The notes: generated by a model not told the origin, from the sequence alone. A stretch of 12,758 nt of DNA from a bacterium (GCA_025774865.1 JALGZO010000125.1:1-12758); one strand, 5' to 3'. Counted from the stretch's first letter, positions 2,642-12,758 are shown. Translations and numbers: made by a program.

Positions 2642-3745
2642 ATGGATCACGATCTTCACTGGTACGCCGAATCGGGACAGATCGACCGGCTGCGGGCCGA
2701 TCTCGAGGCCGGTGCAGATCGCGAAGCCCGCGACGAGGACGGGCGGACACCGTTGCAGATCGCCACCGAGAAGGGGCGCCTCGACGTGATCGAGGTGCTG
2801 GCGGACGCGGGAGCCGATCTGGACGCGGCGGAGGGCGTCGCTCCGTCGCTGCGTCCTCTCCACCGCGCGTGCCTCGTCTCGGAGCGATTCGCGCTCGCCC
2901 GGAACGAGGAGATGGCCCGGCTCCTGTTGCGCCGGGGGGCGGACCCCGCCGTCCCCGACGACGCCGGGCGCACGCCGCTACACCTCGCGATCGAATGGTG
3001 CGGCTCCGATCTCCTCGAGCGCTTCATCGACAAAGGAGCCGATCCCGTCGCCACCGACGAGTCCGGGCGCACGCCACTGCACGTCGCGTGCGCGCGCGGA
3101 GCGATGTCCATGGCCGATCACCTGATCGAGGGAGAGGGTGCGGCCGCGGCTCGGCGGAAGGACACGGCCCTGGCCCGCCTCGAAGACGAGTCGGTGCTCG
3201 AGACGCTGATCGCTGACGGAGCGAACCCGGCCGAACCCGACGGGCAGGGGATCACGCCGATCCACGTCGCGGCCGAGCGTGGAACGGAGTGGGCGGCCAA
3301 GATCCTTCTCGCCCACGGCGCCGATCCGAACTCGGTCGACTCCTACCGCGCCACACCTCTCCATCGCGCGGCCGACGCGAACGTCGCGGAGCTCTTGATC
3401 GCGCACGGTGCCGACCTGAACCCCCTGGACAAGGACGGGAACCCTCCGCTGCATCGCGCGGTCGGATCGGGGCGGATCGACGTCGCGGACGTGCTCCTCG
3501 AGCGGGGCGCCGACGTGCGGGTGGCCAACGCCGACGGTCGGACGGCGCTTCACGTCGCCGCGAGCTCCGGTCGCGCCCATACCGTCGAGAAGCTCGTCGC
3601 GCGCGGCGCGGACGTCAACGCGCCGGATCGGGACGGCCGCACGCCGCTCACCGTCGCGAAGGAGGGCGGCCACACGCTGGTCGTCCAGACGTTGAAGCGG
3701 CACGGCGGTCGCACGCGGAAGCGTCGCTCCTTCTTCGGATTCTGA
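2642..3745 (+). CDS. ankyrin-repeat protein
   Basis: 367 residues, composed almost wholly of about ten ankyrin repeats of the form DGRTPLHxAxxxGxxxxxxxLLxxGADxNxxD. The clearest lie at about residues 32-64, 107-139, 140-163, 201-233, 264-296, 297-329 and 330-356. The unit around 166-200 is degenerate, having lost the TPLH turn, and the unit at 234-263 is about three residues short. The protein ends in a basic tail (RTRKRRSFFGF). No signal peptide or membrane segment is visible, so it is probably a cytosolic binding scaffold; the partner cannot be inferred. The start at 2642 is chosen because the repeat-cap helix begins there and because of the -10 box 7 nt upstream; the longer frame from 2558 adds only non-conserved residues that overlap the preceding gene. 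It lies 11 bp before thiD and is probably co-transcribed with it. Confidence 0.95.
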   Translation: MDHDLHWYAESGQIDRLRADLEAGADREARDEDGRTPLQIATEKGRLDVIEVLADAGADLDAAEGVAPSLRPLHRACLVSERFALARNEEMARLLLRRGADPAVPDDAGRTPLHLAIEWCGSDLLERFIDKGADPVATDESGRTPLHVACARGAMSMADHLIEGEGAAAARRKDTALARLEDESVLETLIADGANPAEPDGQGITPIHVAAERGTEWAAKILLAHGADPNSVDSYRATPLHRAADANVAELLIAHGADLNPLDKDGNPPLHRAVGSGRIDVADVLLERGADVRVANADGRTALHVAASSGRAHTVEKLVARGADVNAPDRDGRTPLTVAKEGGHTLVVQTLKRHGGRTRKRRSFFGF

Positions 3746-3756
3746 CGGAGACTCGG

Positions 3757-4521
3757 ATGACCCCGACCATCCTCACGATCGCCGGCTCCGACCCGACGGG
3801 GGGCGCGGGGATTCAGGCCGATCTCCGGACGGCGGCCGAGCTCGGATGCCGGGGCGCGAGCGCCGTCACCGCGATCACCGTTCAAGACTCGCGCGGCGTG
3901 CACGGGTGGGAGCCCGTATCCGCCGACCTCGTCCGCCAGCAGGTGCGCACGATTCTCCGGGACTTCGAACCGGGAGCCGTGAAGACCGGCATGCTCGCGA
4001 CCGCAGAAATCGTCGAAGTCGTCGCCGAGGAGATCCGGCGGGAGGCGACCCGCGTCCTCGTGGTCGATCCCGTGCTCGTCTCGTCGTCGGGAGCTCCCCT
4101 GCTCCAGGAGGGCGGCCTCGAGGCGCTGCGGCGTGAGCTTCTCCCCCTCGCGACTCTCGTCACCCCGAACGTCGACGAAGCCCGACGCCTCTCGGGGCTT
4201 CCGGTCGAGTCCGCCGACGACGCCGGAAGGGCCGCCGCCGCGATTCGCGACCTCGGTGCCGCCGCCGTCGTCGTCACGGGTGGGCACCTCGAAGAAGAGC
4301 CCGGTACGGACGTTCTCGTGACGCGCGACGGCGTGACCCGGTTCGCCCCGGAGAGGGTCGAAGGCCGCGACGCCCATGGTACCGGTTGCGTTTTCTCAGC
4401 GGCGATCGCGTGCGGGCTGGCACGAGGCGAGTCGCTCGAGGAAGCGGTGGAGGGCGCCAAACGGCTCACCGAGGACCTGATTCGCCGGTGTCCCGCTCAC
4501 CGACCGGAGCCGGCGTCGTGA
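3757..4521 (+). CDS. thiD: hydroxymethylpyrimidine/phosphomethylpyrimidine kinase
   Basis: 254 residues, close to the usual length of about 265. ThiD phosphorylates 4-amino-5-hydroxymethyl-2-methylpyrimidine and then its monophosphate, supplying the pyrimidine half of thiamine in the cytosol. It is a ribokinase-fold enzyme. Seen here: the N-terminal TIAGSDPTGGAGIQADL substrate and oxyanion region (residues 7-23), VKTGML (75-80), VDPVLVSSSG (103-112), TPNVDEA (136-142), VVTGGH (172-177) and the catalytic DAHGTGC motif (205-211), with the family's conserved Cys at 211. The start ATG at 3757 has GGAG 6 nt upstream. No TPP riboswitch fits in the 11 bp leader and no other thiamine gene is adjacent, so control probably comes from the upstream ankyrin promoter. 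The stop overlaps the GTG start of the next gene. Confidence 0.97.
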   Translation: MTPTILTIAGSDPTGGAGIQADLRTAAELGCRGASAVTAITVQDSRGVHGWEPVSADLVRQQVRTILRDFEPGAVKTGMLATAEIVEVVAEEIRREATRVLVVDPVLVSSSGAPLLQEGGLEALRRELLPLATLVTPNVDEARRLSGLPVESADDAGRAAAAIRDLGAAAVVVTGGHLEEEPGTDVLVTRDGVTRFAPERVEGRDAHGTGCVFSAAIACGLARGESLEEAVEGAKRLTEDLIRRCPAHRPEPAS

Positions 4522-5024
4522 CCGCGACGATACGCGCGATCGCCGACACCGACTGGGAAGCCGTTCTCGCGATCTACGCCGAAGGAATCCGCGGGGGCAA
4601 TGCCACATTCGAGACCGAGGTCCCCGACTGGGAAACCTGGAAGCGCGGACATCTCGAAGTCGGCCGGCACATCGTGGTCGAGGACGGGAAGGTCGTCGGA
4701 TGGGTGGCGCTCGCCCCCGTCTCTCCCCGGCCATGCTATCGCGGCGTGGCCGACGTGAGCGTCTACGTCACGGATCGCGCCCAGGGGCGCGGCGTGGGGC
4801 GGGCGCTCCTCGACGCGGCGATCGAGTCCTCGGAGGCGCATGACATCTGGACCCTCACGGCCGGCATCTTCCCCGAGAACGAAGCGAGTCTCAGCGTTCA
4901 CGAGAAGTGCGGCTTCCGCCGGGTCGGAGTGCGGGAACGCATCGGCTGGGGCCTTGGTCGCTGGCGCGACGTCGTGTTGATGGAGCGCCGCAGCGCCAAG
5001 GCGGGCACGCCCGATCCTGTGTAA
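4518..5024 (+). CDS. GNAT family N-acetyltransferase (phosphinothricin acetyltransferase/MnaT-like)
   Basis: 168 residues. The start is the GTG that overlaps the thiD stop as GTGA, with GGAG at 4506-4509 (8 nt spacer). The pattern is that of the Pat/YncA subgroup, which acetylates the amino group of small amino acids or analogues such as methionine sulfone, methionine sulfoximine or phosphinothricin using acetyl-CoA. Seen: IRAIADTDWEAVLAIY at the N-terminus, NATFETE (28-34), YRGVADVSVYV (74-84), the acetyl-CoA pyrophosphate loop QGRGVG (89-94), and N.ASLSVHEKCGFRRVGV (121-138) followed by GRWRDVVLM (147-155). These match the subgroup along its whole length. The natural substrate is unknown; detoxification or amino-acid housekeeping is most likely. 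Translational coupling to thiD is clear, but a functional link to thiamine is not. Confidence 0.93.
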   Translation: MTATIRAIADTDWEAVLAIYAEGIRGGNATFETEVPDWETWKRGHLEVGRHIVVEDGKVVGWVALAPVSPRPCYRGVADVSVYVTDRAQGRGVGRALLDAAIESSEAHDIWTLTAGIFPENEASLSVHEKCGFRRVGVRERIGWGLGRWRDVVLMERRSAKAGTPDPV

Positions 5025-5056: not shown

Positions 5057-5602
5057 CTACTGCGGATACGAGAAATCGACCGCCAGGTAGGTTCGACGAT
5101 CGATCGCGATCTGCTCGATCGTGCCGCCGAGCGTGAGAGCCCCGGTCAGCGTCCGGGTGCCGCCCCAGTACACTGACGAGTCCCCCGCCATCTCGCCGGT
5201 CTCGTCGTCCTCCTTCGGCACGAGCATCACCACGCGCTCCCGCTCCAGGAAATCCACACTGACCCTCATGTACATCTCCGGCTGGCGAAGGCGGAGCGGC
5301 TCCACCGCGTCCGCGCCGGAAAAGTAGACGGTGAAAATGCTGGTCTCGGGATCGAACGTGATCTCGGCGTGGGCCACGTGGTTCCCCAGCGCGACCACGG
5401 AACCGCCGTAGAGCGCCTCGTGCTCGCAGTCGAGGGCGTGCTCCGTCACGACCGAGCCGGGCGGGGGCAGGGCCGCCGCGCCGAGGGCGCCGCCGGCCTT
5501 TCCTCCGGCCAGTTTGGGGTCGTCGGACTCCTCATCTGCTCCCGTCGGTGGGACCAGCGTCAACCCGACGAACCCGATGAGGACCAAAGCGAGCATTCTC
5601 AT
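5057..5602 (-). CDS. small secreted protein of unknown function
   Basis: 181 residues, last gene of the minus-strand cluster. The ATG at 5602 follows GAGGAG (5610-5615, 7 nt spacer) and begins a signal peptide: MRM, a hydrophobic run to about residue 17, then PPTGA with cleavage likely near residue 22. There is no lipobox Cys. A Gly/Ala/Pro-rich linker (about 30-50) leads to a beta-rich region with GGSVVALGNHVAHAEITFDPE followed by FTVYFSGADAVEPLRL. I have a loose impression of small periplasmic proteins with GG.V..LG.HH.E-type strands in planctomycetes and relatives, but I would not assign a family. A second conserved-looking part is GGTRTLTGALTLGGTIEQI. The stop faces the GNAT stop across 32 bp with no clear terminator. 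It lies 11 bp from the upstream esterase gene, so it is probably in the same transcript. Confidence 0.75.
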   Translation of the reverse strand: MRMLALVLIGFVGLTLVPPTGADEESDDPKLAGGKAGGALGAAALPPPGSVVTEHALDCEHEALYGGSVVALGNHVAHAEITFDPETSIFTVYFSGADAVEPLRLRQPEMYMRVSVDFLERERVVMLVPKEDDETGEMAGDSSVYWGGTRTLTGALTLGGTIEQIAIDRRTYLAVDFSYPQ

Positions 5603-5609
5603 GGTGTAT

Positions 5610-5615
5610 CTCCTC
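5610..5615 (-). promoter_or_regulatory. Shine-Dalgarno site that fixes the start of the small secreted protein
   Basis: GAGGAG on the minus strand, 7 nt before the ATG at 5602. It overlaps the TGA of the upstream esterase (5614-5616), which suggests coupled translation. It supports the signal-peptide start rather than the longer open frame reaching to 5764. Confidence 0.8.
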
Positions 5616-6342
5616 AAACCCATTCTGCGAGGTATTTCGGCAACATTTCCCGCCACAACGGCCAGTCGTGATCCCAGTCGGGTCCCCACGAGTCTACCCG
5701 ATTCGGCACCCCCGCGGCGCCCAGGACCTCGGCCGCTCGCCAAGATTCTCCGATGTCTTCCCACCGACCCTCGCCGGAGGCGAAGAGCACGAAGCGCTTC
5801 CGGACCTGATCCAAGTGCTCGCCGTTCATTCCCCCGAGGAAGTGAATGGGAGAGGACTCGAAGAACTCGGGTCCGGGCTCGTCCTCCTTGTAGAACCGGA
5901 CGAGATCGAAGGTGCCGCTCATGCAGAGCGCGTGGGAGAACGCGTCAGGGTGTCGACAGATGAGAGCCAAAGCGTTGAAGGCGCCGATGGACGATCCGGC
6001 GACCACCAGCTCGAGGTCGTCGTCGCGGCAGTCGTGCCGAACCGCCGGCACGACCTCGTGGTATATGAACTCCTGATACTGCTTCTGGATCCATCCGCGG
6101 TACCGGCCGTCGCTGTCGCCTCGGAGCATCGCACGACCCGCCACGCTGTCGACGGAATAGACCTTGATCTTTCCGGCGGCCAGAAGATCCGACAGCACGT
6201 CGATCACGAGGAAGCGCTCGATCTCCTCGGCGTCACCGCCCGCCGTGGGGAATATGAGCACCGGCTTGCCGATTTCCCCCCAGCGCGCCAGCGCGACCTC
6301 TTGCCCGAGACGCTTCGAGTGCCAGGTTTCGGTCGCCTTCAC
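5614..6342 (-). CDS. putative esterase, alpha/beta-hydrolase fold
   Basis: 242 residues. The start is the GTG at 6342, which overlaps the stop of the upstream ATP-grasp gene as GTGA and has GAAGG 7 nt upstream (6350-6354). The fold signs are KPVLIFPTAGGDAEEIE (26-42), typical of the first strand and oxyanion region of the putative-esterase family, and the nucleophile elbow VVAGSSIGAF with Ser118. The likely base is His225 in DWDHDWPLW near the C-terminus; the acid is not certain. There is no signal peptide, so it acts in the cytosol. The family includes S-formylglutathione hydrolase, Fes and mycolyltransferases; this member has no characterised substrate that I know of. Its coupling to an ATP-grasp ligase suggests it hydrolyses or transfers an acyl group made or used by that enzyme. 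Confidence 0.87.
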   Translation of the reverse strand: MKATETWHSKRLGQEVALARWGEIGKPVLIFPTAGGDAEEIERFLVIDVLSDLLAAGKIKVYSVDSVAGRAMLRGDSDGRYRGWIQKQYQEFIYHEVVPAVRHDCRDDDLELVVAGSSIGAFNALALICRHPDAFSHALCMSGTFDLVRFYKEDEPGPEFFESSPIHFLGGMNGEHLDQVRKRFVLFASGEGRWEDIGESWRAAEVLGAAGVPNRVDSWGPDWDHDWPLWREMLPKYLAEWV

Positions 6343-7604
6343 GGTCCCGCCTTCTCGCGGCGCGACGCGGCCGGAGAGTCGCGCCACCGCTGGATCCTCT
6401 CCCAGAAGAGCTCCGTGAACTCCTCCACTTCGTGATCCGGGTAAAGAGCCTCGACCTTCTTGCGAACCGCGTCCTTCGCGACGTCGGAACCGAAGAACTC
6501 CCGAGCGACCTCATCCAGATGCGACAGGTGCGTGGCGCAGAACTCTTCGAAGTGTTCCGCGTCGAAACGCTTCAGTGCGATCGCCGCGTACTCCGAGAGC
6601 TTCTCGCGAAACGACAGATCGTCTCGGTCTGCAATCGCGTAGAACGGGGTCCAGTTGAGGTTGCGGCGGAACGGCCGCTCGACGGCGGCGCAGAAGATGG
6701 ACCACTTCAGTTTCGCGAGTAGGAGCCACGGGAAGTGAAAGTGCAGCGATGTGACCTGCGAGTCGGGACAGGGATTCGCGAAATCGATCGGCCGCCAGGT
6801 GCCCTTCTCGCCACGAAGTGTCTCGCAGGAGTTGAAGTCCCAGCCGAAGAAGGAGTTGATCGTGAGCGTCATGTCCTCGAGGACGGCGGCGTCGGTCGGG
6901 GAAAGAAAGTCGGTCTCCATCGTGTAACGATCGTGGAGCGGACCCGACGGATCGTAGAGAACGTGGCGAATCTGCGGACCGAGGCCGACGGTGCGCACGT
7001 AGAGGTCGAACGGCTCCACGGCTCGCTGGATGTGCATCACGTGGCGGCCGCTTTGTTCGTACGCGGCCTGGAGCGCCGCGGGGTTCTCGATGCGGCTGAC
7101 CCCGGTCCAGCCTCCCCCGTCGTAGGGTTTCATGTACATCGGGTAGCCGAGCCGCTCCCCGACGTCTTCGAGATCGAACAGGCGCGCGTAGCGTTCCAGG
7201 GTCGGCTTCAGGTCGGGGCTCGATTCGTACTCCTTCGGCGGGATGAGCCAGGTCTCGGGAATCGGAAACCCGAGCCGCAGCATCCCGCCGTACGTGGTGA
7301 GCTTCTCCATCGACTGCACGGACCACGGATTGTTGAACACGTAGACGTCGTCGAGGAGGATCGACTTCTTGATCCATTCGCGGCTCGGGTGATACCAGTG
7401 CGTCAACCGGTCGATGACGAGGTCGTACCGGGGAGGGTCGAGAAGGGCGAACGGCTCGATCGTGACGCGCTCCACCTCGAACTGGATGCAGTCCCCGTCG
7501 ACGGGAATCGAGAGGTCGAGCCGCTCCAGAATCTCTTCGTAGCAAATCGGCCAGCAGATGTCCGCCCCGAGGGACAGGCCGATTCTTCGGGTCAGGGTGG
7601 CCAT
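6339..7604 (-). CDS. ATP-grasp domain protein (ligase 2), with long C-terminal extension
   Basis: 421 residues. The ATG at 7604 has GGGGAGG only 2 nt away, a tight spacing; the frame extends to a TTG at 7712, but the added 36 residues look non-conserved. The N-terminal domain (8-125) includes SLGADICWPICYEEIL and a run with FNNPWSV and MEKLTTYGGMLRLGFPIPETWLIP, the typical lid and hinge before an ATP-grasp core. The ATP-binding segment is YPMYMKPYDGGGWTGV, with Lys159 and the glycine loop 163-165. Later come VRTVGLGPQIRHVLY (203-217) and the metal-binding segment WRPIDFANPCPD (270-281). Such enzymes activate a carboxylate as acyl-phosphate and join it to an amine or similar nucleophile. About 140 residues rich in Trp/Phe and helices follow the metal site and are not part of the standard core. 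Substrates unknown. It heads the second block of the cluster and is translationally coupled to the esterase after it. Confidence 0.86.
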   Translation of the reverse strand: MATLTRRIGLSLGADICWPICYEEILERLDLSIPVDGDCIQFEVERVTIEPFALLDPPRYDLVIDRLTHWYHPSREWIKKSILLDDVYVFNNPWSVQSMEKLTTYGGMLRLGFPIPETWLIPPKEYESSPDLKPTLERYARLFDLEDVGERLGYPMYMKPYDGGGWTGVSRIENPAALQAAYEQSGRHVMHIQRAVEPFDLYVRTVGLGPQIRHVLYDPSGPLHDRYTMETDFLSPTDAAVLEDMTLTINSFFGWDFNSCETLRGEKGTWRPIDFANPCPDSQVTSLHFHFPWLLLAKLKWSIFCAAVERPFRRNLNWTPFYAIADRDDLSFREKLSEYAAIALKRFDAEHFEEFCATHLSHLDEVAREFFGSDVAKDAVRKKVEALYPDHEVEEFTELFWERIQRWRDSPAASRREKAGP

Positions 7605-7718
7605 TTCCTCCCCATCTTGCTGCGGGCTCCTCCCGCCGCTGGTTGCTCCGGGGCTCCACCCACTCGTCCCGACCCGTCCCGAGACCCCTCCTTCGATTCT
7701 AGCCGAATCCAAGAGCCG
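7605..7718 (-). promoter_or_regulatory. intergenic leader of the second block, with -10-like box at 7696-7701
   Basis: This 114 bp gap is the only sizeable break in the minus-strand cluster. GCTAGAAT (7696-7703, minus strand) matches the -10-like elements at three other genes in the window; initiation near 7688 would give a leader of about 84 nt. The leader contains a direct repeat of CGGGACG and a short perfect hairpin (stem GCGGG/CCCGC, loop AGGAG, 7622-7636) just ahead of the GGGGAGG ribosome site. No TTGACA-like -35 is visible. The likely function is independent or boosted expression of ligase 2, the esterase and the secreted protein. Confidence 0.45.
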
Positions 7719-8882
7719 CTACTCATACACCATCCAGAGGGGACCTGGATACAGCCAGGAAAGCCCCTCTCGAAGCCGATCCCGCCAGTTCTCCCAGTTG
7801 TGGCCGTCGCGAGCCTCGACGTAGCGGACGTCCATCCCCGTGGATTGCAGGAGCGGCACGAGCGACCGGTTCTCGTAGATGAGAGACTCGTACATGCCGC
7901 AGCTGACGAAGACCTTCTCGGCGACGGCCGAGGGCTGGTCGCGGAACGCGTTCACGAACGCCACGACCGGATCGAACGCGGGACCTCGCTCGTGATGGGG
8001 CCCGATGTCCGTGAAAGCGAACGAGCCGGACTGCAGCAGCAGACGTCCGAACCGGTCCGGGTAACGCCATGCCGCGGCGAGAGAGGCGACGGCCCCGAGG
8101 CTCGCGCCGAGCAAGCAGCGGGAGGCCACGGTGCCCTCCAGCGGCAGGCGTTGTTCCAGTTTCGGAACGAGCTCCTCGGCGAGAAACTCGGCGTGCGAGG
8201 GATCGTCGGCGTACTCTCGCATGCGGTCGCGCGGATCGATCATGGCGGCGATCAGACCGGGAATCTCGAAGCGGTGAATCAGATTGTCGAGGACCGTCTT
8301 CAGACCCGAGTAGTTCAGATAGTCTCCCCCGTCGTGCACGATCAGCAAGGGATAGCGGCGCTGGGCCCGGTAGCGCGCCGGGTAGTAGAGCGTGACGGGG
8401 ACCATCCGATGCATGACCCGGCTCCGGATCCGGATCTCCTCGAGGCGACCGGGTCCGGCGTCAGGGTCCTCCGCGATCCACTCCGGGACCTCGTATCCCT
8501 CCGCCTGACAAACCGAGTTGGCCCCGAACGGATCGCGCGCGAGCGCCGAGTTGAGGGGATCCTCGATCCACTGGTGCGTGGGACCGCGAACGATCTCGAA
8601 CTTGTACTCCACGCGCGAGCCCCGGGGTAGCTCGAGGACGAGATACCAGAGGTCGGTGCCGTGAACCCGGTTGAACGCTTGCGTCGACGGGAGCCCGTAG
8701 ACCCAGTGTCGCAAGTGAACGGCGTCCGCCTCGCCGCGCCACACGAAGGTCACGCTCGATCCCTCGACGATCGGGAACCGGTGACGTGCGAAGAACTCGT
8801 CGATTGCGGCGGCGCCGAGCGACACCCGGCTCTCGAGCTCGCGGATCGCCAATCGGTGGCCCGGGGCGGAGGAAATGCTCAC
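7719..8882 (-). CDS. enterochelin esterase-like hydrolase with N-terminal E-set domain
   Basis: 387 residues. The start is the GTG at 8882, which overlaps the upstream stop as GTGA, with GAGGAG at 8891-8896 (8 nt spacer). Residues about 35-130 (SSVTFVWRGEADAVHL, WYLVLELPRGSRVEYKFEI, DPLNSALARDPFGANSV) form an immunoglobulin-like E-set domain resembling the N-terminus of Fes and the CBM48/AMPK-beta glycogen-binding fold. Residues about 150-380 are an alpha/beta hydrolase of the putative-esterase family: YPLLIVHDGGDYL (177-189), the nucleophile elbow LLGASLGAVASL with Ser261, LLLQSGSF, and the likely catalytic His361 in DGHNWENW. There is no signal peptide. Fes hydrolyses the ester bonds of ferric enterobactin, but no siderophore synthesis or uptake gene is present here. 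Because glgA lies in the same operon, a glucan- or conjugate-linked ester is an alternative substrate (inference). Confidence 0.88.
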   Translation of the reverse strand: MSISSAPGHRLAIRELESRVSLGAAAIDEFFARHRFPIVEGSSVTFVWRGEADAVHLRHWVYGLPSTQAFNRVHGTDLWYLVLELPRGSRVEYKFEIVRGPTHQWIEDPLNSALARDPFGANSVCQAEGYEVPEWIAEDPDAGPGRLEEIRIRSRVMHRMVPVTLYYPARYRAQRRYPLLIVHDGGDYLNYSGLKTVLDNLIHRFEIPGLIAAMIDPRDRMREYADDPSHAEFLAEELVPKLEQRLPLEGTVASRCLLGASLGAVASLAAAWRYPDRFGRLLLQSGSFAFTDIGPHHERGPAFDPVVAFVNAFRDQPSAVAEKVFVSCGMYESLIYENRSLVPLLQSTGMDVRYVEARDGHNWENWRDRLREGLSWLYPGPLWMVYE

Positions 8883-9832
8883 GCGGCGAGCTCCTCGACG
8901 CGGCCGTCGGTACCGAGGACGGAGGTCCCGGGAGACACGGACCAGTGGTCGGGGCTCACCACGAGGCGGGCGCCATCGTCGAGCGCGAGGCAGCGGTCGG
9001 GCGCCCACCGTCTCGCGAAACGAGAGACGCGAGCGGCATCGTCGAGGCGCAGGCGCGTGCGCGCGTGCGGCAGCGCGATCACCCCACGACAGAGCCCGAG
9101 GCCGACCTCGAGTACTTCGGCGTTGCCCGGGCCTTGCGGGGGCCTGTCGTGATAGACGACGATGCGCTCTCCCAGCACCATCGCCCCCGCCGACCAGCCG
9201 ATCACTGGCTTCTCGCGGATCATCTCGGTGATACCGAAGAGTCGGAGACGGTTCAGAAGCACCGCCACGTGCCCCCCGGCGATCGCGATCGCTTCCGCCC
9301 GGCCGACGATCTCCGCGAGCTCCCGTTGGTGGCGCCTCCCAACGGAGTGCCGGTCGAGCCGGAGCCGCTCGCGGTACTCTTCATGGATACCCCGGACCTG
9401 GTCGAGGTGCTCGCGGTCGAGTCGCCGGACCGCATCGAGCGAGCGGTGCAGGCTCTCCGCCACGAGGTCGGCGGGACCCGCGTGCTCCGTCAGCTCGATC
9501 ACGGCCCTGGCCGTGTGAACGAGCCGAACGTTGTAGAGGGACTGCAGCGCCTGCAGTCGGCGCTGACGTTCGTTGTGGAGCGACGCGATCTCCGGGACCT
9601 TCGCAAAGACGTCGTCGCCGCGACGATGTAGTTCGAGATTGTCGAACCGGTCGCTGAGTCGGTCGGCGGGACGCCGCGTTTCGGTTTCACGCTCCTGCCA
9701 CCCGGCGGTCACCGTCGCGATCCGCCCCCCCACCCCGAGCTCCTCCAGCGCCGCCGTCAGCGTCGGTGTCCGGCCCTGCGGACCGAGCAGAATGACCGTC
9801 TGCTCAGAACTGATTTCGGTGAAGGTGCTCAC
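8879..9832 (-). CDS. peptidase S51/cyanophycinase-like protein (type 1 glutamine amidotransferase-like fold)
   Basis: 317 residues. The start is the GTG at 9832 in a GTGA overlap with the ATP-grasp stop; its ribosome site is weak. The N-terminal part (11-45: TVILLGPQG, GRIATVTAGWQERE) looks like the first strands of the fold. A charged, helical stretch of about 100 residues (75-175) interrupts it. The C-terminal half carries AIAIAGGHVAVLLNRLRLFG (181-200) and the nucleophile elbow VIGWSAGAMVL with Ser214, the hallmark of peptidase E and cyanophycinase. Asp229 lies 15 residues after the Ser, the same offset as I recall for the Ser120-Asp135 pair of peptidase E. His256 (LPHARTR) is a candidate base. 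It therefore probably hydrolyses, or transfers from, a peptide or isopeptide bond, possibly one made by the neighbouring ligases. It is not cyanophycinase by context: no cyanophycin synthetase is present. Confidence 0.8.
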   Translation of the reverse strand: MSTFTEISSEQTVILLGPQGRTPTLTAALEELGVGGRIATVTAGWQERETETRRPADRLSDRFDNLELHRRGDDVFAKVPEIASLHNERQRRLQALQSLYNVRLVHTARAVIELTEHAGPADLVAESLHRSLDAVRRLDREHLDQVRGIHEEYRERLRLDRHSVGRRHQRELAEIVGRAEAIAIAGGHVAVLLNRLRLFGITEMIREKPVIGWSAGAMVLGERIVVYHDRPPQGPGNAEVLEVGLGLCRGVIALPHARTRLRLDDAARVSRFARRWAPDRCLALDDGARLVVSPDHWSVSPGTSVLGTDGRVEELAA

Positions 9833-11052
9833 TCGGCTCGGACCTGGACGTTCTGTCCGACGGCGTCCAGCATACGGCGGAGCTCGTCGAAGTCGGGATG
9901 CCGCAATCGCATCCACGCGTTCGCCATGTAGCCCGATTCCACCGATTGCGTCGGCGTCCCCGGGTCCGGCAGGTGCCAGTCGATCAGACTCTCGCCGAAC
10001 TCTTGCCGAACGAACTCCACCCCCTCGTAGCCGATGATGGTGCCGTCCCGGTCGGGTCGCAGCGTGATGATTCCCGCGGAGTACCGCCGGGACGGCTCCT
10101 GCTCGATGCAGCCCCAGCAAATCGCTCGCGCCCACTCCTCGTAGACGTCCATCTCGTTCGCGGCGCAGTAGAGATCCCAACACCCCACCCCCGGTGGGCG
10201 GCACCCGATCTCCGAGAAGCGAAGGCCCTTGGGCCCGAAGAACCATTCCATGTGCGTCGGCGAGGTATCGATAGCCAGCGCCTCGATCACTTTTCCTCCG
10301 AGCTCCCGGACCTCGCGATAGTCCTCAGCCGTATCGATACGATTCGTGACGATGAACTGCGGCGAGATCCAGCGCGTGCGCATCGCCTCGAGCACGTTCG
10401 GGTAGTAATGCGTCACGAAGTCGCAGGCGACCCGACCGCCGATCGTGATCGTGTCGTAGAATGCTTCGTGACCTTCGACGAACTCCTCGATGGCCACCGA
10501 GCTGCCGTGCTCGACGCCGGACGCGTGCAGGGCGCCGTCGAGCTCCTCGTTCGACGTCACCTTGAAGGTGCCGGCGGACCCCGCGCCGCTGCGCGGCTTC
10601 ACGATGAGAGGAAAGCCGACCGAGTCCGCGAAGCGATGTGCCTCGTCCGAAGAGACCGCGCCGGTGGACTGCGCACAGGGGACGCCGGCCTTCGCCAGAG
10701 CGTCCTTCATGGCCGGCTTGTCGCGGCAGAGCCACGCGGTCCTGACGGAAGTGCCAGGAATCCCGCACGCCTCGCGCACGCGCGCGGCCGTCATCACGTG
10801 GGCCTCCACGGTCGCCTCCAGCCGGTCGACGGGCAAGCGTTCATGAATCCAGCGCACGCAACGCATCACCGCGTCATCGTCCACGACGGACGGAACCTGC
10901 TCGTAATGGAATAGCCTGCCCAGCATGTCGGAGGGGAGAGCCCCGGTCGGGCTCTCGCCGATCGCCGTCACCTTCGCGCCGACCGCGAGAAGCCCCCGCA
11001 CGAACTCGTTCTGGTTCGCGGGAAACGCCGGCTCCAAGAAGACGACGTGCAC
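9829..11052 (-). CDS. ATP-grasp carboxylate-amine ligase-like protein (ligase 1)
   Basis: 407 residues. The GTG start at 11052 is one base after the glgA stop, with GAAGG at 11059-11063 (6 nt spacer). The N-terminal Rossmann-like domain is VVFLEPAFPANQNEFVRGLLAVGAKVTAIG (3-32). The central lid has TAWLCRDKPAMKDALAKAGVPCA (105-127), and the ATP-binding strand and loop is FPLIVKPRSGAGSAGTFKV, with Lys152. EEFVEG (189-194) is the adenine-hinge region. Metal and substrate residues lie in SPTHMEWFF (Glu269) and FSEIGCRPPGVG (Glu281, Arg285). This layout matches the carbamoyl-phosphate-synthase-like ATP-grasp enzymes that form amide bonds via acyl-phosphates, such as dipeptide ligases and carnosine-synthase-like proteins. 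It is the more canonical of the two complete ligases in the window. Substrates cannot be read from the sequence. Coupling to glgA upstream and the S51-like gene downstream is tight. Confidence 0.9.
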   Translation of the reverse strand: MHVVFLEPAFPANQNEFVRGLLAVGAKVTAIGESPTGALPSDMLGRLFHYEQVPSVVDDDAVMRCVRWIHERLPVDRLEATVEAHVMTAARVREACGIPGTSVRTAWLCRDKPAMKDALAKAGVPCAQSTGAVSSDEAHRFADSVGFPLIVKPRSGAGSAGTFKVTSNEELDGALHASGVEHGSSVAIEEFVEGHEAFYDTITIGGRVACDFVTHYYPNVLEAMRTRWISPQFIVTNRIDTAEDYREVRELGGKVIEALAIDTSPTHMEWFFGPKGLRFSEIGCRPPGVGCWDLYCAANEMDVYEEWARAICWGCIEQEPSRRYSAGIITLRPDRDGTIIGYEGVEFVRQEFGESLIDWHLPDPGTPTQSVESGYMANAWMRLRHPDFDELRRMLDAVGQNVQVRAE

Positions 11053-11053
11053 C

Positions 11054-12529
11054 CTAGACCTTCGCTTCTTGTCGCGTGACGAGCTCGCCGTACAGCTCGA
11101 GGTAGCGTTTCCCGGCTTTCTCCCAGGAGAAGTCCGCGTTCATAGCGTTCGACATCAGCTTCTTCCACACCTCGCGATCCTGATACAGGCCGAGCGCCGT
11201 CCGCAGTGCCCAGCGAACCCCCTCGGCGGTCGGATGGTCGAACACGACCCCGTTGCCGGATTCGCTCTCCGGATCCCACTGACGCACGGTATCCGCGAGG
11301 CCACCGGTCTTCCGGACGATCGGGATCGTCCCGTACATCAAGCTGTACATCTGGTTGAGCCCGCAGGGCTCGTAGATCGACGGCATCAGGAACATGTCCG
11401 CACCGGCCTCTATGCGGTGGGCGAGCCCTTCGTGGAAACCGCGATAGAAGCAGACCTCCCCCGGGAACGCTTCCTGGAGCTCCGCGAAGAACCGTTCGTA
11501 CTTCGACTCACCGCTCGCCAGGATGACGAGGCGAAGCACGTGCGCTTCGAGAAACTCGGGCAGCGGCTCGAAGAGGAGCTCGATGCCCTTTTGACCGGTG
11601 AGTCGCGTCACCATGCCGACGACCGGCCGGTCCGGGTCGTACGGCAAGTGAAGATCCGAGAGGAGTGCCTCCTTGTTCTTCTCTTTGCGCCAAAGGCTCT
11701 TTTGCGAATAACGGTGGGCGAGGTTCGAATCGCGGCGCGGATTCCAGACGGCCGTATCGACTCCGTTCAGGATTCCGACGAGCGTTTCGCCGCGCTCGCG
11801 CATCAGATCGTGCAGGCCGGCGCCGAGCTTCTCGGTTCGGATCTCCTCGGCGTAGGTCGGGCTCACCGTGGTAACGCGATCGGCGTAGAGAACTCCCGTC
11901 TTCAAAAAGCCGATCGCGCCCTCCCGGAGGTCCTCCTGATGGAGGTACTTCGCGCTGTCCTCGAGGCCGGTGTCGGTCAGGACGGAGGCGGGGAACGTTC
12001 CCTGGTAGCCGATGTTGTGAATCGTGAGCACCGACCGCGTGGCCTGGAAGAGACGATCCCACGCATAGATCGACTTCAGATAGAGTGGAATCAATCCGGT
12101 CTGCCAGTCGTGACAGTGCATCACGTCGGGCGCCCACCCGAGGCGTTGACACGCATCCAGGGCGGCCCGTGACAGCAGGATGAACCGACGGTGTTCGTCG
12201 GGGTCGTTCGTGTAGACGTGCAGCCGATCGTAGAGCGCGGGGCAGTGAATGAAATGCACGACCAGTGACGATCCCGGAAGAGTGGCCTGGAGCACGTCGT
12301 AGGAGATGCGATCCGCCCCGGTCTCCACGGACAGATCGGAGAGCCCTTCGACGGGAGCGAAGTCGTAGGCGTCGGTCTCGATGGCGGAGTAGAGGGGCGT
12401 GAAGACGCGGACGTCGTGCCCCGCGCCATGGAGGAACGAGGGCAGCGCGGCCGAAACGTCAGCGAGCCCGCCGACCTTTGCAAACGGAGCGATCTCGCTC
12501 GTCACGTGACCGATTCGAAGAGTACGCAT
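11054..12529 (-). CDS. glgA: glycogen synthase (ADP-glucose type, GT5)
   Basis: 491 residues, near the usual 480. It transfers glucose from ADP-glucose to the non-reducing end of an alpha-1,4-glucan in the cytosol. Seen: the N-terminal sugar-nucleotide motif EIAPFAKVGGLADV (Lys18), HCHDWQTGLIPLYLK (138-152), LTIHNIGYQG (168-177), LNGVDTAVWNP (254-264), the phosphate-contacting TRLTGQKG (308-315), the catalytic-region SIYEPCGLNQMYSLMYG with Glu387, and the second KTGGLADTV (407-415). All expected motifs are intact, so it should be active. The ATG at 12529 has no ribosome site but a TAGACT box exactly 7 nt upstream, which suggests a leaderless message. It is first in the operon; no glgB, glgC or glgP is visible. 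Operon mates are ligases and hydrolases rather than glycogen genes, which is unusual. Confidence 0.97.
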   Translation of the reverse strand: MRTLRIGHVTSEIAPFAKVGGLADVSAALPSFLHGAGHDVRVFTPLYSAIETDAYDFAPVEGLSDLSVETGADRISYDVLQATLPGSSLVVHFIHCPALYDRLHVYTNDPDEHRRFILLSRAALDACQRLGWAPDVMHCHDWQTGLIPLYLKSIYAWDRLFQATRSVLTIHNIGYQGTFPASVLTDTGLEDSAKYLHQEDLREGAIGFLKTGVLYADRVTTVSPTYAEEIRTEKLGAGLHDLMRERGETLVGILNGVDTAVWNPRRDSNLAHRYSQKSLWRKEKNKEALLSDLHLPYDPDRPVVGMVTRLTGQKGIELLFEPLPEFLEAHVLRLVILASGESKYERFFAELQEAFPGEVCFYRGFHEGLAHRIEAGADMFLMPSIYEPCGLNQMYSLMYGTIPIVRKTGGLADTVRQWDPESESGNGVVFDHPTAEGVRWALRTALGLYQDREVWKKLMSNAMNADFSWEKAGKRYLELYGELVTRQEAKV

Positions 12530-12536
12530 CAGGCGA

Positions 12537-12542
12537 AGTCTA
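12537..12542 (-). promoter_or_regulatory. probable -10 box for the glgA operon (leaderless)
   Basis: On the minus strand, GCTAGACT contains TAGACT followed by exactly 7 nt and the glgA ATG. There is no Shine-Dalgarno sequence in that interval. It lies back to back with the -10 box at 12564-12569, with the palindrome TTCGAA (12549-12554) between them. This is pattern-based inference. Confidence 0.5.
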
Positions 12543-12563
12543 GCACCCTTCGAAAGTTGGAGC

Positions 12564-12569
12564 TAGAAT
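12564..12569 (+). promoter_or_regulatory. probable -10 box for the divergent ATP-grasp-like gene
   Basis: GCTAGAAT contains TAGAAT, then 7 nt, then the ATG at 12577. The box itself overlaps the alternative ATG at 12568, which would lie upstream of the transcript if this promoter is real. It forms a compact divergent promoter pair with the glgA box. Confidence 0.5.
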
Positions 12570-12576
12570 GCCCGGC

Positions 12577-12758
12577 ATGCCGAGCGCCGTCTTCGTCGCC
12601 CCTTTTCTGCTGAAGACCACCCTGCGGTTCGTGAGGGCCGCGACCGAGCTGCCCGGAGTGAAAGTCGCGCTCGTCACGCAGGACACCCGAGACAAGATCG
12701 AGTCGCCTCTGCGGGATCGGCTCGCCGCCTTCGAGACCGTCGACGACGCGATCGACCC
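12577..12758 (+). CDS. probable ATP-grasp protein, N-terminal fragment (cut by window end)
   Basis: Only about 60 residues are visible. It begins MPSAVFVAPFLL, then TTLRFVRAATELPGVKVALVTQDT, and continues to VDDAID at the edge. A short strand, a P-F loop, a helix and a second strand ending in a polar turn is the N-terminal Rossmann-like pattern of ATP-grasp ligases, and the wording resembles ATP-grasp proteins that begin VVFVAPF. No catalytic region is in view, so the family call is tentative. The ATG at 12577 is preferred because of the TAGAAT-N7-ATG promoter. The ATG at 12568, with GGAG 5 nt upstream, would add three residues. It is divergent from glgA with about 47 bp between the chosen starts, which suggests shared control with the cluster. 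Confidence 0.6.
   Translation, partial: MPSAVFVAPFLLKTTLRFVRAATELPGVKVALVTQDTRDKIESPLRDRLAAFETVDDAID

Follow-up and report, generated by a model that had tools for sequence, protein, structure and literature searches.

The window considered here, a bacterial DNA stretch of 12,758 bp (GCA_025774865.1, JALGZO010000125.1:1-12758), is contig C127 in full, from a genome bin of 4.7 Mb that is broken into 785 contigs, and it holds a gene set in which a glycogen synthase (GlgA) is combined with ATP-grasp proteins, an S51-like protein and two predicted esterases. Its genes were taken from open reading frames (ORFs), translations and the raw sequence, and families were assigned by Pfam and NCBIfam scans. 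The initial annotation had described seven consecutive minus-strand genes of named families, on which coordinates and family scans agree: the run spans 5057-12529 and begins with GlgA (11054..12529), followed by ATP-grasp 1 (9829..11052), the S51-like protein (8879..9832), a Fes-like esterase (7719..8882), the hallmark gene ATP-grasp 2 (6339..7604), esterase 2 (5614..6342) and, last, a secreted protein (5057..5602). The close or overlapping spacing with a single gap of 114 bp, likewise noted earlier, is exact, since four of the six junctions are tight, with 1 bp between GlgA and ATP-grasp 1 and a 4-bp overlap (GTGA) at each of ATP-grasp 1/S51, S51/Fes-like and ATP-grasp 2/esterase 2, and the 114 bp lie between the Fes-like and ATP-grasp 2 genes (7605-7718).

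Divergent from glgA, on the plus strand, the window ends with the N-terminal 63 codons of a further ATP-grasp protein, here called 3b (12568..12756). The end of another contig, C223, is identical to the final 114 bp of the window; this contig completes ATP-grasp 3b (409 amino acids, aa) and then carries ATP-grasp 3a (404 aa), so that the divergent ATP-grasp of the initial annotation is real, but the total in the system is four rather than three. Across loci 3a and 3b form two separate clades (supports 1.0 and 0.94). The starts of glgA and ATP-grasp 3b are 38 bp apart (12530-12567, first ATG assumed), which is very tight for two promoters. Also on C223 and near ATP-grasp 3a (L111, G000:C223, 24-7923, plus strand) are a 1,699-aa protein with many HYDIN/ASH-like Ig, cadherin-like and CBM96 domains and a Vps10-like protein of 891 aa, both of which have an FlgD_ig tail.

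Predicted ligases and hydrolases

The ATP-grasp proteins of the system are about 400-420 aa long, lack a Mur domain and have intact ligase motifs. ATP-grasp 1, which is 57-70% identical across phyla, gives ATP-grasp family matches in the Pfam and NCBIfam scans, and its profile matches the L-amino acid ligase 4wd3 (2.5e-22) and BacD (3e-15); ATP-grasp 3b has a weak LAL_C2 match, and profile comparison relates ATP-grasps 3a and 1 weakly to ligases of free dipeptides. By profile, 1, 3a and 3b thus resemble the L-amino acid ligases (BL00235/4wd3, BacD; PF13535/ATP-grasp_4 group), from which they differ in that this system has three paralogues with scores far below the curated cut-offs. L-amino acid ligases form amide bonds between amino acids, and RimK-fold ligases add amino acids onto carboxyl ends.

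It is the RimK fold that ATP-grasp 2 shares by predicted structure. By sequence this protein has only a sub-threshold match to Dala_Dala_lig_C, and no match to TIGR00768 (rimK_fam) was found at E 0.01. Its AlphaFold2 (AF2) model (predicted local distance difference test score, pLDDT, 87) finds RimK as the best fold match (Z 19.5, root mean square deviation 2.8 Å, 259 aligned residues), followed about 1-2 Z units lower by inositol kinases, synapsin and ArgX. Among ligases RimK and LysX/ArgX are the top matches, and the graspetide ligase structures 7drm and 5ig9 are found among the matches as well; graspetide ligases of this fold form esters with hydroxyls. Although the fold is common to RimK, LysX and ArgX, ATP-grasp 2 is only 13-16% identical to them, falls below the RimK family thresholds and carries about 110 extra, helical C-terminal residues, and no LysW-like carrier or S6-type partner was found near its gene. 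It contains the invariant blocks IDFAN and FFGWDFNSCE, and the modelled fold makes it likely that ATP-grasp 2 is a ligase. A plasmid search with ATP-grasp 2 as query gave no match.

ATP-grasp 2 has a shorter paralogue, of about 310-350 aa, in three of the loci (L084, L086, L087) and in most of 67 other Acidobacteriota genomes. That of L084 has no Pfam match, and the paralogue gene adjoins a GCS2 ligase in each of the three and, in L084 and L086, a circularly permuted ATP-grasp as well, a neighbourhood that is possibly another undescribed peptide-ligase system.

The S51-like protein scores 48.8 bits against PF03575 (Peptidase_S51; gathering score 23.9), and its AF2 model (pLDDT 92) aligns with pseudo-CphB, cyanophycinase and PepE with Z values of 14-16. 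It shares the fold and the nucleophile motif, GWSAG, with cyanophycinase and dipeptidase E (MEROPS S51), but has a long helical insertion at about residues 65-175, and a third of its relatives lack the catalytic His: Ser is present in 36 of 39 and His in 27, the window protein having both. The two esterases score 78.3 bits (Fes-like) and 45.2 bits (esterase 2) against PF00756 (cut-off 22), and catalytic Ser and His are invariant in both (26/26 and 22/22 relatives, respectively). The Fes-like protein, which has an Enterochelin_N-like N-terminal domain, matches enterochelin esterase 2b20 over both domains (4e-24) and also CE1 feruloyl esterases, some of these with CBM48-type N-domains. Unlike Fes, however, it is here the partner of ligases, and neither the scanned window genes nor the recurrent families recognised in 81 loci include siderophore biosynthesis or uptake genes.

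Distribution of the gene set and its glycogen synthase

These 81 loci are the window and 80 others (59-72% identity) obtained from one scan with ATP-grasp 2, and their neighbour families were clustered from the genes of a codon-usage gene caller. By the submitters' names for the genome bins they belong to Acidobacteriota, Planctomycetota, Myxococcota, Gemmatimonadota, Pseudomonadota, Actinomycetota and Eisenbacteria, and the set recurs in at least six phyla, the first six of those just named. Direct search finds the Fes-like esterase in 73 loci, esterase 2 in 67, the S51-like protein in 55 and a linked GlgA in 28 (29 by gene calling), counts to be read with the fact that many of the contigs end inside the gene set. 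The genes form two modules, one of S51, Fes-like, ATP-grasp 2 and esterase 2 and the other of ATP-grasp 1, GlgA and the divergent ATP-grasp 3 pair, which are joined, inverted or separated depending on the phylum. GCS2-type and PGM1/BesA-like ligases recur in locus variants; in the variant of Granulosicoccus and alphaproteobacteria the order is GCS2-ligase, Fes-like, ATP-grasp 2, esterase 2, ATP-grasp 1. The PGM1/BesA-like ATP-grasp peptide ligase adjoins ATP-grasp 1 in two loci (L019:10175-11761 and L033) and esterase 2 in another (L055).

Furthermore, the genes occur together in whole genomes. Among 247 Acidobacteriota genomes true ATP-grasp 2, counted at E below 1e-200, is present in 11 and the S51-like protein in exactly the same 11, while full ATP-grasp 1 is found in 10 of these and nowhere else. 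Among 196 Planctomycetota genomes ATP-grasp 2, S51 and ATP-grasp 1 are present in 27, 26 and 27, respectively, with 26 shared in each comparison. The hypergeometric values of 1e-16 to 1e-31 overstate the significance, since genomes within a phylum are related, though the two phyla agree. Of the 26 planctomycete genomes that share them, 10 have ATP-grasps 1 and 2 on different contigs, and in one acidobacterium the two lie about 490 kb apart; the association is therefore independent of linkage.

The window GlgA scores 539 bits against TIGR02095 (cut-off 328) and 257 bits against PF08323 (Glyco_transf_5), and it has the catalytic motifs KVGGL, RLTGQKG and EPCGLNQ, which are conserved in its clade; as far as sequence goes, score and motifs place it in the ADP-glucose glycogen synthase family. 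It is the sole GlgA of its genome, and most system genomes have only one. As GlgA is found in 174 of the 247 Acidobacteriota genomes, its presence alone is uninformative; its position and phylogeny carry more. Of the 29 loci that carry a linked glgA, 28 have a system gene no more than 353 bp from it, in several different arrangements. In a tree of 75 GlgA sequences, rebuilt with 68 after removal of long branches, the linked GlgAs of several phyla and six unlinked ones from system genomes, these six chosen after the first tree was seen, form one clade (support 100/100) in which the window's own group is joined by Acidobacteriota, Planctomycetota, Myxococcota and Pseudomonadota. Genomes without the system, a comparison set drawn from Acidobacteriota alone (20 genomes in the larger tree, 17 kept in the smaller), have no GlgA within it, and one genome, G028, holds both a clade GlgA and an ordinary one. 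A divergent linked GlgA from a Holophagae bin lies outside the clade on a long branch and was left out of the 68-sequence tree. Judged from the tree, then, a GlgA subfamily is dedicated to the system. The idea that the window GlgA is a mere housekeeping copy was also considered, and the clade tree speaks against it. The linked GlgAs of two Holophagae genomes (L036 and L020) score about 279 bits, below the cut-off, and still adjoin ATP-grasp 3; the strongly diverged Holophagae GlgA may have changed function.

Recurrence in several phyla, co-occurrence and a GlgA subfamily of its own bear out the earlier proposal that the ligases and hydrolases are a real gene system coupled to GlgA. The homologues are not scattered, being linked across phyla and found with glgA beyond close relatives.

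A possible conjugate pathway and its alternatives

We tentatively favour, as a reading that falls somewhat short of an even chance, a conserved pathway with several ligases that is tied to glucan metabolism and makes and recycles an amide- or ester-linked conjugate. Ligases accompanied by a peptidase-fold protein and two esterases are most simply read as conjugate synthesis and turnover, and the glucan connection comes from the dedicated GlgA and from the glgC, malQ, GH57 or debranching enzyme genes that adjoin the set in some loci (names given by eye except for glgC and one alpha-amylase-family protein). Such neighbours are shared with glgA/glgC glycogen operons, from which the system differs by a GlgA whose clade is separate and goes with ligases and esterases. 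In the scheme that we infer from the computed gene set, GlgA clade, folds and motifs, ATP-grasps 1, 3a and 3b (L-amino-acid-ligase type) and 2 (RimK type) would couple carboxylates to amines or hydroxyls at the expense of ATP, the putative product of the four being a short amino-acid or peptide conjugate, which the S51-like protein and the two PF00756 esterases might then trim, release or recycle. The dedicated GlgA would make or extend an alpha-1,4-glucan from ADP-glucose, and this glucan could be the conjugate's scaffold or its co-stored partner. A covalent link between conjugate and glucan is in our judgement unlikely, and slightly more doubtful is the full proposal of a new biopolymer or glycoconjugate, present across several phyla, in which amino acids or short peptides would be amide- or ester-bound to the alpha-glucan of the dedicated GlgA, assembled by the four ATP-grasps and remobilised by the S51-like protein and the esterases.

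The system invites comparison with known ones. Multi-ATP-grasp amidoligase gene systems were reportedly described by Iyer et al. 2009; these and graspetide loci likewise have ATP-grasp ligases beside peptidases and hydrolases, whereas the present set has a dedicated glycogen synthase and no conserved precursor peptide was found, as none of the ORFs of at least 22 aa in the spacers of at least 75 bp, to which the search for a precursor or carrier peptide was confined, is conserved beyond close relatives. An account of graspetide loci (PMC8939145) makes no mention of glycogen, starch or S51. The initial annotation knew of no described pathway with this set, and our full-text search of the open-licence literature likewise found no description of it.

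Several observations weigh against the conjugate pathway with its glucan partner. As RimK-fold relatives include kinases and synapsin, the fold alone is no proof of ligation, and the catalytic His is lost in 12 of the 39 S51 relatives. In several system genomes an ordinary, unlinked GlgA is the only one, and the Granulosicoccus/alphaproteobacterial variant is without S51, the ATP-grasp 3 pair and linked GlgA; glucan is therefore not needed in every lineage, and the variant argues for a ligase chemistry that can work by itself. A ligase-esterase core without linked GlgA, and genomes served by an ordinary GlgA, are indeed what would be expected if the product of the ligases were a small peptide or amino-acid conjugate that stays free and serves as reserve, osmolyte or signal, with GlgA no more than co-regulated, carbon and nitrogen reserves rising together and nothing being attached to the glucan. 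The resemblance of ATP-grasps 3a and 1 to free-dipeptide ligases points the same way, and we consider this a serious possibility, albeit one that the balance of evidence does not favour, since a separate GlgA clade that has full support and is seen, across phyla, in system genomes only exceeds the needs of co-regulation, and the two esterases are left unexplained.

The remaining explanations account for less of the system. RimK modifies S6 and ArgX acts on LysW, and with these as the best folds ATP-grasp 2 might add amino acids to a protein, perhaps GlgA or a carrier, and so control glucan synthesis, the S51-like protein and the esterases removing the tag; such protein modification is however made improbable by the finding that the spacers contain no conserved ORF for a small carrier or peptide, by the redundancy of three further ligases and by the persistence of variants without a dedicated GlgA. 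Somewhat more improbable is a storage polymer resembling cyanophycin, which split ligases would make and the S51-like protein, as a cyanophycinase homologue, would degrade; this notion stems from the fold match of the S51-like protein to cyanophycinase and pseudo-CphB (Z 16) and from weak matches of the ATP-grasps to the ATP-grasp part of CphA. Yet no three-domain CphA-type synthetase or Mur-ligase domain is found among the recurring genes, the S51-like protein scores only 17.9 bits against the NCBI cyanophycinase model (cut-off 126.6), and esterases and GlgA find no role. That unrelated housekeeping genes have come together by chance is hardly credible: the commonness of GlgA alone in Acidobacteriota would allow it, but it is contradicted by near-perfect co-occurrence even of unlinked genes and by adjacency recurring across phyla.

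A pathway of seven or eight genes stays intact across distant phyla of environmental bacteria, and we found no described product for it; its own branch of glycogen synthases implies that glucan serves for more than plain storage. If the conjugate reading is true, the product would be a bacterial reserve or surface material of a new class, and functions would follow for several families now labelled only "ATP-grasp" or "esterase".

Other neighbouring genes

In Acidobacteriota a B12-dependent methionine synthase gene adjoins ATP-grasp 1 in one locus (L088) and is one gene away in another (L091); in these two genomes we took it as a local neighbour and not as a member of the system. The secreted protein, which the initial annotation included in the gene set, is indeed present in the run but is not conserved: it has no Pfam or NCBIfam match in the family scans, a search of the 81 loci found a homologue in one other locus only (L002, 34%), and it is probably lineage-specific and outside the conserved system. 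The left half of the contig carries four plus-strand genes (829-2595, 2642-3745, 3757-4521 and 4518-5024), whose families comprise an FG-GAP repeat secreted protein, assigned by Pfam, together with three named by eye, namely a protein with ankyrin repeats, a kinase resembling ThiD and an acetyltransferase of the GNAT family.

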